64,000 nt of DNA. Source: Hymenobacter oligotrophus. GTDB lineage: Bacteria; Bacteroidota; Bacteroidia; Cytophagales; Hymenobacteraceae. Location: assembly GCF_003574965.1 (NCBI RefSeq), contig NZ_CP032317.1:2480001-2544000 (forward strand), written 5' to 3'. The notes below the pieces were generated by a model that searched no databases, was not told the origin of the DNA, and saw only the letters and a list, made by a program, of their open reading frames with translations. Positions 993 through 5,451 of this stretch are shown piece after piece; position 1 is the stretch's first letter, and every line of letters starts with the position of its first letter. Made by a program: the position numbers and the translations under genes.

Positions 993-1023
993 TTTGCGTT
1001 TTAGGCAACCGGTACTACCTTTG
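993..1023 (+). promoter_or_regulatory. Bacteroidetes-type promoter of the met locus
   Basis: TTTG at 993-996 and TACCTTTG at 1016-1023 are separated by 19 nt, matching the -33/-7 consensus of the primary sigma factor of Bacteroidetes. Transcription would start near 1030, just upstream of the SAM riboswitch. Confidence 0.75.
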
Positions 1024-1061: not shown

Positions 1062-1172
1062 GGTTTATTCCGAAGCGGCGAGAGAACAGGCTCGATGACC
1101 CGCTGGCAACCACCGGCAACGCACAAGCCGGCAGGTGCCAAGTCCTGCCCCCACCGAGGGGACAAATAAATA
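1062..1172 (+). promoter_or_regulatory. S-box (SAM) riboswitch
   Basis: The leader carries the S-box core: GAGAGAACAGGCTCGATGA, GGCAACC and GGTGCCAAGTCC in the right order. Helices I can pair by eye are P1 (TTTATT 1064-1069 with AATAAA 1165-1170), P2 (AGCGG 1074-1078 with CCGCT near 1101), P3 (CCGGC with GCCGG around an A-rich loop) and P4 (GTCC 1142-1145 with GGAC 1160-1163). It precedes metY, metX and hom, the expected targets of SAM repression. No poly-T terminator follows at once; the next element is a small Cys-rich ORF beginning 8 nt after the aptamer. The exact S-box subclass would need a covariance model. Confidence 0.88.
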
Positions 1173-1179
1173 GCGTGCT

Positions 1180-1341
1180 ATGGATACCTACCCGCACCCC
1201 TACCACACTCTTTCGCAGTTCCGCGCTACCGCGGCGCCCGCTACAGCTATGCTTGTAGCCGTTCGCCCCGCCCCCGCGACCATGATGCAGCCGCAAGCTA
1301 TGCGTGCTGCCGCAGCGGTGTGTTGTTGCTGTTGTTGGTAG
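1180..1341 (+). CDS. Cys-rich leader peptide ORF (ends in CCCCCW)
   Basis: An in-frame ORF of 53 codons starts at ATG 1180, right after the riboswitch, and ends with five Cys codons (TGT TGT TGC TGT TGT), a Trp codon and TAG. Internal ATGs at 1249, 1282, 1285 and 1300 would give shorter peptides; the last would read MRAAAAV followed by Cys5-Trp. The body is low-complexity Ala/Pro/Thr, with no domain or membrane segment. Five contiguous Cys codons, mostly TGT in a GC-rich genome, at the end of a leader ORF in front of a sulfur amino acid operon is the hallmark of ribosome-mediated attenuation. I infer that slow decoding when Cys-tRNA is scarce changes folding or Rho access of the region 1342-1548. 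Translation is not proven. Confidence 0.65.
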   Translation: MDTYPHPYHTLSQFRATAAPATAMLVAVRPAPATMMQPQAMRAAAAVCCCCCW

Positions 1342-1349
1342 TTAGCCCC

Positions 1350-2934
<1,585 letters not shown>

Positions 2935-2949
2935 AGGGAGGGAAAACTT

Positions 2950-3132
2950 GGAAGCCCATCCACTGCCATGGTACGGGGCTTCCCTTCCAGCAAGGCACCT
3001 AGGCGAAGCGCTTCGGGAGAAAGTGCTTCGCCGCCGCTTCGGCTCCTTTGCTTTCCGGCCCCCTTTATCTGCTCGAGGGGGCCGGGAGCAAAGAATGACT
3101 TACCACCGCACGCCTAGTGGTGGCGGTGTTTT
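2950..3132 (+). promoter_or_regulatory. Cluster of inverted repeats ahead of metX
   Basis: The metY-metX gap holds several hairpins: GGAAGCCC 2950-2957 with GGGCTTCC 2976-2983; a 10-bp stem 3055-3064 with 3076-3085, extended outward by TTTGCT/AGCAAA; and CACCGC 3104-3109 with GCGGTG 3123-3128 followed by TTTT at 3129-3132. The last resembles an intrinsic terminator and ends 35 nt before the metX ATG; an alternative pairing ACCAC 3102-3106 with GTGGT 3117-3121 is possible. It may tune metX-hom relative to metY, or may only be terminator/repeat debris. Confidence 0.45.
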
Positions 3133-3167
3133 ACCACTCCTTTCAGCCTTACCCGAAAGGACCTGCT

Positions 3168-4202
3168 ATGAGCCAACAACAAACCTTAACCCTGGCCCAA
3201 CCGCTGCCGCTGGAGTGCGGCGGCGAGCTGGCCGGGGCACAAATTGCCTACCACACCTACGGCACCCTTAGCCCCGCGCGCGACAACGTGCTGTGGGTGT
3301 GCCATGCCCTCACGGCCAATGCCGATGTAGTAAGCTGGTGGCCCGGCTTGGTGGGCGCTGGCCACTACTACGACCCGGCCGAATGGTTTATTGTGTGTGC
3401 TAATGTGTTGGGTTCGTGCTACGGCAGCGCTGGCCCACTCACGCCGGTGTTGCCGCACAACCGGCCGCTGTACCAAGCTTTTCCGCGCCTTACGGTGCGC
3501 GACTTGGTTGCCGCGCACGAGCAACTGCGTCAGCACCTAGGCATCGAGAAGATACATACCGTTATCGGTGGCTCCCTAGGTGGGCAGCAGGCGTTGGAGT
3601 GGGCCATTGCGCACCCCAAGCGGTTCGAACACCTGGTGCTGTTGGCCACCAACGCGCGGCACTCGCCCTGGGGCATTGCCTTCAACGAGGCGCAGCGCCT
3701 AGCTATTCAGGCCGATTGCACCTACCAGGGCGGCGGGCCCGAAGGCGGCGTGGCGGGTTTGCGGGCTGCCCGGGCTGTTGCCTTGCTCAGCTACCGCAGC
3801 TACGATGCCTACGGTCGCACCCAAGCCGAGCCCGACGAGGATACGCTGCCGGCTTTTTACCGGGCCAGCTCCTATCAGCAATACCAAGGCGACAAGCTGA
3901 CGGCGCGCTTCAATGCCTACAGCTACGTTACGCTGTCGCACATCATGGATTCGCACAACGTGGGCCGCGGGCGCAATGGCTTAGAAGCTGCGCTGGCGCA
4001 GGTGCAAGCGCGCACGCTGGTGCTCGGCATTTCGTCGGATGTGCTGTTTCCGCCGGCCGAACAGCAGTTTATTGCCCGCCACATACCCGGCGCCATGTAC
4101 GCCGAAATGGATTCGCCCTACGGCCACGACGGTTTTCTGATCGAAACCGCGCAAATCACGCATTTCCTCGAACGTTTCTATGTCCAAACCTTCGTCCACT
4201 AA
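3168..4202 (+). CDS. metX: Homoserine O-acetyltransferase
   Basis: A 344-residue alpha/beta-hydrolase that acetylates homoserine with acetyl-CoA, the committed step of methionine synthesis in the direct sulfhydrylation route. The catalytic triad is readable: Ser136 in GGSLGGQQ, Asp291 in SSDVLFPP and His320 in YGHDGFLIE; the family motif TNARHSPW is also present. I chose ATG 3168 over the longer frame from 3117 because AAAGGA lies 7 nt upstream and the family N-terminus begins here. It overlaps hom by 23 nt, so the two are translationally linked. A CCTAGG site encodes part of the nucleophile elbow. Confidence 0.93.
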   Translation: MSQQQTLTLAQPLPLECGGELAGAQIAYHTYGTLSPARDNVLWVCHALTANADVVSWWPGLVGAGHYYDPAEWFIVCANVLGSCYGSAGPLTPVLPHNRPLYQAFPRLTVRDLVAAHEQLRQHLGIEKIHTVIGGSLGGQQALEWAIAHPKRFEHLVLLATNARHSPWGIAFNEAQRLAIQADCTYQGGGPEGGVAGLRAARAVALLSYRSYDAYGRTQAEPDEDTLPAFYRASSYQQYQGDKLTARFNAYSYVTLSHIMDSHNVGRGRNGLEAALAQVQARTLVLGISSDVLFPPAEQQFIARHIPGAMYAEMDSPYGHDGFLIETAQITHFLERFYVQTFVH

Positions 4203-5451
4203 CCCCCACACCCGCATTGGGCTAATTGGTTTCGGCTGCGTTGGGCAGGGCCTGTTCGAGATTTTGGAGCGGCACCCCGAAGCTGGTTTTGAGGTGGTGC
4301 GCATCGCCGTGAAGACCCCCACCAAGCTGCGTGCCTTGCCGGTTAGCCGCTTTGAGTTTCAGGCCGATGAACTGCTGCACGACGCCGACCTGGATATACT
4401 GGTAGAGGTTATCGACGATGCGGCCGAAGCTTTCCGGCTGGTGAGTTCGGCCTTGCGCCTGGGCAAGCGGGTGATTACGGCCAACAAGGCCATGGTGGCC
4501 CGGCACTTGCCCGAACTGCTGCAATTGCAGCGCGATTTTGGCGGCACGCTGTTATACGAAGCAGCTGTGTGCGGTAGTATCCCAGTCGTTCGCACCCTCG
4601 ACAGCTACTTTGGCCAGGAGCCGCTGCGCTCGGTAAGCGGCATCTTCAATGGTTCCTCCAACTACGTGCTCACGCGCATGAGCGAGGGCGGCTCCGACTA
4701 CGCCGAGGCCTTGGCCGAAGCCCAAGCGCAAGGCTTTGCCGAAACCGACCCCACGCTTGACATGGCAGCTTTCGATCCTAGGTCGAAAGCGGTGATACTG
4801 GCCGCCCATGCCTACGGCTTGCTGCTGAACCCCGACGACGTGCTGAATCTAGGCATCGAAAACATTTCGTCGGCCGACATTCGCTACGCCGCCGAGCGCG
4901 GCCAGAAGATTAAGGTAGTGGCCAGCTTGCAGCCCTTGCCGGGCGGCGGCGCTACCGTGTTTGTAACCCCTCAGCTGGTTTCGGCCGATTCGCCGCTGTA
5001 TGCCGTGGAGCGCGAGTTCAACGGCGTAGTAGTGGAAGCCGAGTTTGCCGGCCAGCACTTTTGGCGCGGCCGCGGTGCCGGCGGCCACCCCACCGGCTCG
5101 GCCGTGCTTTCCGACCTAGCAGCCCTACGCAACGGCTTCCGCTACCGCTACGATAAGCTGAGCGCCGCTGCCACGGATACTGCTGAGGCAACGCCGGATC
5201 TGGAGCTGGAAGTGTACCTGCGCAATGCTCCCGAAGTGCTGCAGCACGCCCTAGGTGTTACCAACGAATTGGGCGCGGCCATAGCAGCTACTTCGGCACC
5301 GGTAGGCTTCCTAGGTTATGTCCGCCTGAAGCAGCTACACCAGCACCGCGATGCGCTACGCGCCGCCGGCGCATTCGTGGCCCGCACGGGCAAAACACGG
5401 CAAGCGGTTGCTCAGCCGCCGCAACTAGCCACCGAGCTTGTGGCCGAATAA
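4180..5451 (+). CDS. hom: Homoserine dehydrogenase
   Basis: A 423-residue NAD(P)-dependent dehydrogenase converting aspartate semialdehyde to homoserine, feeding metX directly. The N-terminal Rossmann motif reads LIGFGCVGQGLFE, followed by ITANKAMVARHLPEL (nucleotide-binding domain) and the catalytic-domain signature SGIFNGSSNYVLTRM with ETDPTLDM downstream. The C-terminal 95 residues are an ACT-like region (LEVYLRNAPEVLQHALGVT). It stands alone and is not fused to aspartokinase. The start ATG 4180 lies inside metX. Its stop codon is embedded in the large palindrome that separates it from the convergent esterase gene. Confidence 0.92.
   Translation: MSKPSSTNPHTRIGLIGFGCVGQGLFEILERHPEAGFEVVRIAVKTPTKLRALPVSRFEFQADELLHDADLDILVEVIDDAAEAFRLVSSALRLGKRVITANKAMVARHLPELLQLQRDFGGTLLYEAAVCGSIPVVRTLDSYFGQEPLRSVSGIFNGSSNYVLTRMSEGGSDYAEALAEAQAQGFAETDPTLDMAAFDPRSKAVILAAHAYGLLLNPDDVLNLGIENISSADIRYAAERGQKIKVVASLQPLPGGGATVFVTPQLVSADSPLYAVEREFNGVVVEAEFAGQHFWRGRGAGGHPTGSAVLSDLAALRNGFRYRYDKLSAAATDTAEATPDLELEVYLRNAPEVLQHALGVTNELGAAIAATSAPVGFLGYVRLKQLHQHRDALRAAGAFVARTGKTRQAVAQPPQLATELVAE

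Follow-up and report, generated by a model that had tools for sequence, protein, structure and literature searches.

SAM-I riboswitches that hide the ribosome-binding site in P1 have been described (Barrick and Breaker 2007, PMC2258182); in these the initiation region lies on the 3' side of P1. Actinobacterial cys operons, in turn, carry upstream of their sulfur genes a short leader ORF in which a run of Cys codons directly precedes the stop; a conserved terminator is absent, Rho having been suggested by the authors (PMC1262725). Canestrari et al. 2020 reportedly also deal with such actinobacterial poly-Cys leaders, and the mycobacterial poly-Cys attenuators are reported to be leaderless, with the ORF at the 5' end of the transcript. 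An interplay between riboswitches and the translation of uORFs is known from the Mbox and B12 riboswitches of Mycobacterium tuberculosis, the Mbox case combining a translational platform with Rho-dependent termination (PMC12810186, PMC11260477). Two inputs meet on one met mRNA in the Xanthomonas SAM-I riboswitch, which joins SAM to tRNA charging (PMC7270179), and on one sulfur operon in Clostridium acetobutylicum, where SAM and cysteine both bear on the methionine-to-cysteine operon (PMC2258182). A Cys T-box is present at that operon. Finally, the Cys codons of uORFC-8-2, a leader of cysS in Rhodobacterales, have been proposed to form an attenuator (PMC8632094), and an unspecified leader-peptide attenuation has been reported for Flavobacterium psychrophilum (PMC9723704).

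Here we compare with these systems a locus of Hymenobacter oligotrophus at which a SAM-I aptamer is followed directly by a poly-cysteine leader ORF and then by metY (Table 1; by "the window" we mean the whole stretch of 64,000 nucleotides that was analysed). The first-pass annotation had placed a 53-codon ORF ending in five Cys codons, a Trp codon and a stop at 1180-1341 behind a SAM aptamer, with 8 nt from aptamer to ORF, 8 nt from the leader stop to a stem-loop and 207 nt to metY. The ORF held exactly and so did the distances: the leader ATG starts at the eighth base past the aptamer end, with 7 bases between, the stem-loop lies 8 nt past the stop, and 207 nt separate the stop from the metY start at 1549. 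The aptamer scores 65.5 bits against a gathering score of 44.4 and spans the full model (1-108), and no U-tract follows the stem-loop. Downstream, the metX-like gene reaches 355.1 bits with TIGR01392, under the cut-off of 500, and has an internal ATG at 3168 as an alternative start. The -7 promoter consensus has been given as TAnnTTTG (PMC9723704), and promoters of this kind have a TTTG element further upstream; the TTTG at 993-996 is a candidate for it, read from sequence alone. A small GC-rich hairpin (GGTACTCCCCCGC..GGGG, then TTTT) was also seen just 5' of the aptamer in Hymenobacter relatives (for example L012 and L013).

Table 1 Parts of the metY leader locus and adjoining genes, in window coordinates
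Feature	Position	Strand	Basis or remark
Candidate promoter: TTTG 993-996 and TACCTTTG 1016-1023	993..1023	+	read from sequence only
SAM-I riboswitch aptamer (S box), GAGAGA..GGCUC subtype	1062..1172	+	Rfam RF00162
P1 3' strand AAUAAAUA	1165..1172	+	pairs with 1062-1069; -15 to -8 of leader start codon
Leader ORF, 53 codons and TAG	1180..1341	+	ATG start, peptide MDTYPHPYHTLSQFRATAAPATAMLVAVRPAPATMMQPQAMRAAAAVCCCCCW
Five Cys codons TGT TGT TGC TGT TGT	1321..1335	+	sequence
Trp codon TGG (1336-1338) and stop TAG (1339-1341)	1336..1341	+	end of window leader ORF
Stem-loop GCGGGC-GCUUAAA-GCCCGC, 6 bp, loop GCUUAAA	1350..1368	+	sequence, RNAfold
C-rich, G-free tract behind stem-loop	1369..1393	+	candidate Rho-loading region (inferred)
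metY, O-acetylhomoserine aminocarboxypropyltransferase	1549..2934	+	NCBIfam TIGR01326, 673.7 bits (cut-off 495.1)
metX-like homoserine O-acyltransferase	3117..4202	+	NF001209, 331.3 bits (cut-off 331); TIGR01392 below cut-off
Homoserine dehydrogenase	4180..5451	+	NF004976, 302.3 bits (cut-off 205)

A run of Cys codons is weak evidence on its own, because (TGY)4 runs are abundant in the window's genome (189 on both strands, against 75 for the reversed pattern). Raw counts of such runs were accordingly rejected as evidence, and comparison with relatives was therefore used to decide. Within the window itself, the 330 nt past the aptamer were dinucleotide-shuffled, and an ORF that starts within 60 nt and has at least five Cys in its last 12 codons arose in 2 of 20000 shuffles. 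For the comparison we took the best 80 metY loci in named genomes, a set that includes Hymenobacter, Pontibacter, Chryseolinea, Mucilaginibacter and Pedobacter, a Sphingobacterium MAG, and MAGs labelled Saprospiraceae and Flavobacteriales. An RF00162 aptamer was found upstream of metY on the same strand at 76 of these 80 loci, the Rfam search giving no match at L030, L031, L032 and L074. Right behind the aptamer, 70 of the 76 relatives carry a Cys-rich short ORF, 69 by the rule that at least three of the final 12 codons be Cys, and one (L079, whose Cys-rich end is looser) by eye. In the 77-locus set formed by the 76 aptamer-bearing relatives and the window, ORFs starting within 60 nt with at least three Cys in the last 12 codons were present at 70 of 77 loci, as against 2.3% of 7700 shuffles; for at least four Cys the figures were 66 of 77 and 0.16%, and for at least five, 51 of 77 and 0 of 7700.

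The first-pass annotation had proposed such an alignment of metY leaders as a check, and had named leaders without the Cys run, or with frameshifts in it, as findings that would refute its reading. With the window included, a Cys leader is present at 71 of 77 aptamer-bearing metY loci, and frame, start spacing and stop are kept whereas the peptide bodies diverge. Specifically, the first ATG past the aptamer opens the Cys ORF at 68 of 77 loci, and the distance from aptamer end to first ATG is 7-10 bases at 61 of 77. A run of at least three TGY codons is in frame with that ATG at 57 of 77 loci and out of frame at two (L064 and L080, where a later ATG fits); the remaining 18 have no such run or no near ATG, and their frame could not be tested. 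Judged by eye, the peptide bodies seem unrelated across genera and the number of Cys differs widely; position, start, stop, frame and the Cys/Met end are what the leaders have in common. Against the reading, no Cys run was found in 6 of 76 aptamer-bearing relatives: L050 (Belliella), L059 and L077 (Algoriphagus), L060 (a MAG), L065 (Spirosoma) and L071 (Aquiflexum). Because of these six, the second input can evidently be missing. The comparison nonetheless demonstrates a conserved architecture, with conservation of the reading frame, the Cys/Met codons, the start spacing, the A-rich start region and the sulfur-gene context, and the window leader is a member of a large conserved class.

In seven Hymenobacter relatives (L011, L016, L018, L019, L021, L022 and L027) the riboswitch and leader precede a peroxiredoxin-like gene and then metY, and in other genera (L036, L043 and L069) they precede an OsmC-like gene, both gene names having been assigned by eye. 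At one locus, L063, the SAM riboswitch of the metY leader (2613-2729) is preceded on its own strand by another (1061-1172), the two lying within 1.7 kb. Rfam matches to DUF805 RNA and Flavo-1 RNA were also recorded near metY loci (L050 1692-1759; L054 7056-7134).

The first-pass annotation had read the tail as a sensor of Cys-tRNA alone, and this part needed refining. Across 87 leaders (the near copies L207 and L167 being excluded from codon counts), the last 14 codons are 42% Cys and 10.8% Met, internal Met making up 20 of 2405 codons (0.8%) elsewhere in the leader ORFs. TGT (330) and TGC (213) swap freely, and all three stop codons occur. Such Cys/Met tails, we infer without ribosome data, are the kind of sequence on which a ribosome would pause when short of Cys-tRNA and perhaps of Met-tRNA. 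One metY leader of the same class, L328, has a Met-rich end (..MCSPSMRMRMPMSCFSYMCA), just two of its final 12 codons being Cys. Most Hymenobacter leaders (for example L012, L010 and L204) also carry CGAATG (Arg-Met, with a CGA codon) once or twice before the Cys run; this motif is kept though the rest of the peptide diverges, is absent from the window leader, and might act as an RNA element or as slow codons. The window ORF fits no family in NCBIfam or Pfam, and when the leader ORFs of ten relatives were searched against NCBIfam, the sole matches were two weak ones to FliQ, both from one protein (E 0.085 and 0.1). A protein-family identity for the leader ORF was rejected, since no family explains it.

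How might the aptamer act on the leader? In Flavobacterium johnsoniae, A at -3, -6, -12 and -13 are initiation determinants that mark well-translated genes, the start region tends to be unpaired, and the phylum is without Shine-Dalgarno sequences (PMC6847099). Upstream of the start of 71 leaders we found A at frequencies of 63% at -3, 70% at -6, 75% at -12, 52% at -13 and 73% at -14. The leaders are A-rich at -3, -6 and -11 to -14, the distal part of this region being the 3' strand of P1; the A-rich element lies at about -8 to -18, varying with the spacing. The aptamer helix hence overlaps the initiation region of the uORF. Terminator-like sites were found at 0 of 18 class SAM aptamers with a leader, as against 70 of 119 without one (Fisher p 7e-7), and between the aptamer and the leader stop in 3 of 71 metY leaders. 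At L150 an aptamer of this subtype is followed immediately by the apparent start of metX, with no Cys leader in between (the gene was identified by eye). From the start spacing, the A-rich P1, the known P1-type SAM-I switches, L150 and the scarcity of terminators we infer, without SAM-binding data, that the GAGAGA..GGCUC subtype most likely governs initiation of the ORF that follows it, here the leader. (Note that at the window start -3 is G and -6 is C, the A-rich part being kept only around -8 to -15; A is missing from both positions in 7 of 71 leaders, this one included, and present at both in 31 of 71. Our confidence in the main reading was lowered slightly on account of the window start. 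Among the 23 leaders of Hymenobacter and the window, 9 have A at -3.)

The first-pass annotation had also recognised cognate codons near the end of the ORF as the mark of ribosome-mediated attenuation. That mark held; a canonical intrinsic terminator past the leader was found neither in the window nor in 66 of 71 metY leaders, terminator-like sites between -45 and +140 of the stop being present in the other five (L014, L017, L048, L055 and L068). A canonical terminator/antiterminator arrangement was sought and not found in most leaders. A classical attenuator is therefore not demonstrated, and neither is it the case that every leader is free of terminator-like sites. Between +10 and +29 past the stop, 89 leaders are 64-68% pyrimidine and 11-16% G; in the same leaders G is equally low again from +80 onwards, where A rises. 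The window's own genome contains a rho gene. As to output, we infer in the absence of RNA data that Rho-type termination is the preferred candidate and translational coupling the second choice.

Predicted structures around the leader stop differ between clades. For 12 loci forming a Cytophagales clade, none of 200 column shuffles was as stable as the structure around the stop, 84.6% of cells pair on the named structure, and both the number of cells changed on two sides (27) and the covariation score exceeded all 500 shuffles; the number of pairs with two-sided changes was matched by 4 of 500 shuffles and that of further pair types by 28 of 500. These 12 loci had themselves served to derive the structure, and shuffles of this kind can be exceeded by sequences that are related. 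In this clade (L029, L036, L041, L043-L045, L047, L049, L051, L058, L069 and L078) a hairpin, UAGC-GUACGAYCUGCC-RRGUGACA-GGYAUGGUUACGGCUA, with compensatory changes, lies just past the leader stop. A cmscan at gathering score listed no family at this hairpin, and its candidacy as a terminator was dropped, no partner for such a role having been found. A post-stop CAACA block complementary to the Cys run was invariant (12 of 12); the helix that the two would form has 82% of its cells paired, with a two-sided change in only 1 of 8 pairs. For Mucilaginibacter relatives, 0 of 200 column shuffles were as stable as the structure near the stop. Here ACACG is predicted to have two competing partners, the UGUGU of the Cys run and a UGUGU-like segment further downstream. 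Because support falls to 9 pairs under default scoring, where the structure is weak (-4.8 kcal/mol), this putative helix switch is a possibility to be treated as a lead only. For Hymenobacter the structure or hairpin at the stop did not reach significance, its stability being equalled or surpassed by 60 of 200 column shuffles.

The first-pass annotation had taken the arrangement to belong to a methionine locus. Instead, it appears to be a feature of a sulfur regulon rather than a peculiarity of metY. There are five RF00162 matches in the window's own genome, and a leader, starting with GTG in three cases, lies behind four of them; the metH SAM riboswitch has none. Besides the metY leader, one (L228) precedes cysH-cysD-cysN-cobA-cysJ, one (L227) an ATP-grasp protein and an LLM-family monooxygenase whose best NCBIfam match, under the family cut-off, is dimethylsulfone monooxygenase SfnG, and one (L226) an amino-acid permease. 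SAM aptamers were present in 107 of 149 genomes of the class, one 27.6-bit match being left out of the loci examined. Of 145 class and own loci, 138 could be anchored (own loci included) and 7 lacked a core findable by pattern; an ORF with at least four Cys was found at 19 of the 138, and a further locus, L134, has a leader with three Cys. As read from the sequences, the aptamers of the class leaders are all of the GAGAGA..GGCUC type or a near variant, except that of L195. There a terminator-like hairpin belonging to the aptamer comes first, and the poly-Cys leader stands apart from it, starting 154 nt past the aptamer core and preceding a gene that by eye is cysH-like.

Within the order, the model R1 matched 92 of 118 genomes, a figure that is not a leader count since SAM aptamers of other kinds, such as those of the metH-type loci L264 and L268, are matched by R1 as well. 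At least three Cys were found in 24 of the best 30 order loci and, among 60 further loci chosen by hand and not at random, in 29 of the 56 that gave an ORF (4 of 60 gave none); the 27 lower-ranked loci with fewer than three include some metX or metH-type loci. Downstream genes in the order, named by eye, were metY, metX, cysH, the ATP-grasp gene, a permease and SusC/TonB-type receptors. A phylum search with R1 matched 160 of 198 genomes, and 20 further phylum loci showed at least three Cys in 3 of 10 from the same class and a leader in 0 of 10 from other classes. On this small sample, confinement of the pairing to the class Bacteroidia is no more than a possibility. (Note that the named, class and order sets overlap, with the same or near-identical sequences in them, so that counts are not additive, and that part of the relatives' gene names was assigned by eye.)

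Taken together, these results favour a two-stage, cis-acting sulfur sensor that reads SAM first and Cys/Met codons second, a reading to which we assign a probability of roughly 0.7 in the absence of expression or ribosome data. At high SAM the aptamer would close P1 and, as its position and sequence suggest, the closed helix would sequester the A-rich element and block leader initiation. At low SAM the leader would be translated, and pausing at its terminal Cys/Met codons would report the supply of Cys-tRNA and probably of Met-tRNA. A ribosome paused at the Cys run would keep the RNA open and the sulfur genes expressed; if the leader were untranslated, or if the ribosome ran off at the stop, the structure and the pyrimidine-rich, G-poor tract would be exposed, and the exposed region would bring about shut-off, most likely by premature (Rho-type) termination. 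That SAM gates initiation and that the ribosome stalls are inferences, as are the direction of the response and the way in which termination or translation is altered, and the step from stalling to output, with its sign, has not been shown. The first-pass annotation had proposed that the mRNA senses SAM first and Cys-tRNA charging second. This two-input reading is supported by the comparison of metY leaders, its function not being directly shown, and the order is refined to an apparently serial one, in that P1 overlaps the initiation region and any translation of the leader probably depends on SAM.

Four other explanations can be considered. The parts may be two independent devices, the SAM riboswitch acting alone and the Cys leader forming a separate attenuator without SAM gating. 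The uncoupled layout of L195, with its own hairpin and its distant leader, establishes that the parts are separable; however, the leader start lies 7-10 bases past P1 at most metY loci, P1 supplies the A-rich start region, and the class leaders have no terminator-like site, and independence seems unlikely. Alternatively, the sign may be reversed, such that stalling for cysteine lowers metY expression and spares sulfide for cysteine synthesis. MetY and cysteine synthase both use sulfide, and the predicted structures leave the sign unfixed, but the cysH operon for sulfate assimilation, which cysteine starvation would be expected to induce, has a like leader; we doubt this alternative as well. 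Less plausible still is that the Cys run is kept only for RNA pairing (UGUUGC with GCAACA), the ORF being no codon sensor. The invariant CAACA block of the Cytophagales clade speaks for such pairing, but the downstream structures vary by clade while the Cys codons stay, the frame and start site are kept, and TGT/TGC and all stop codons interchange. That the peptide itself works, for instance by binding metals or thiols through its Cys residues or by nascent-chain arrest, is very improbable: Cys-rich C termini do persist and the bodies have a pN of 0.24, lower than the pS of 0.38 (27 hand-chosen, non-independent pairs), but the bodies are unrelated between genera by eye, the Cys number varies and no family fits.

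For the serial sensor, then, the architecture is well supported, the initiation gate is plausible and the output is unsettled. A bolder reading, for which we see the chances as evenly balanced, is that the riboswitch and codon-reading leader in series form a low-SAM AND low-cysteine gate that runs a sulfur regulon without a protein regulator; as part of that reading, and with no better odds, the regulon in Hymenobacter and other members of the class Bacteroidia would cover sulfate assimilation, homocysteine synthesis, and amino-acid and outer-membrane transport. If the serial sensor is real, a single leader RNA combines a metabolite signal, SAM, with the charging of amino acids, Cys and probably Met, and sulfur uptake and homocysteine synthesis would be controlled in this way by many Bacteroidia, in a phylum without Shine-Dalgarno sequences. 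It would also supply an expression platform for the terminator-less SAM-I subtype, a role for the phylum's A-rich start regions and a ready two-input RNA gate, and the short ORFs, which lie outside the NCBIfam models tried, would be probable regulators.

The first-pass annotation did not recall the pairing of a SAM riboswitch with a Cys leader as a described class, and we found no description of it in the open-access literature searched (which excluded supplements, preprints and most subscription papers), nor any paper there that brings together SAM riboswitch, leader peptide, cysteine and Bacteroidetes. Both parts are of known kinds; the combination and the regulon are probably new within reach of that literature. 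Compared with the SAM-I riboswitches that have a ribosome-binding site in P1, the aptamer class is the same, but the ORF proposed to be gated is a poly-Cys leader rather than a biosynthetic gene, and the phylum is without Shine-Dalgarno sequences (PMC6847099). Unlike the actinobacterial leaders, those described here belong to another phylum, stand behind a SAM riboswitch and are enriched in Met codons as well; of the two features of the mycobacterial attenuators, the 3' Cys run is met and the leaderless start is not, a 111-nt aptamer preceding the ORF (the transcript start is unmapped). The uORFC-8-2 system differs in having two Cys codons, an intrinsic terminator and no riboswitch, and the C. 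acetobutylicum operon in that its SAM-I riboswitch resides on an antisense RNA and not before a translated leader. In Xanthomonas the platform binds uncharged initiator tRNA directly, without codon-dependent pausing, and reports on methionine only. The M. tuberculosis uORFs, lastly, are not described as amino-acid codon sensors, whereas the uORF behind the SAM aptamer is proposed here to serve as the second sensor.
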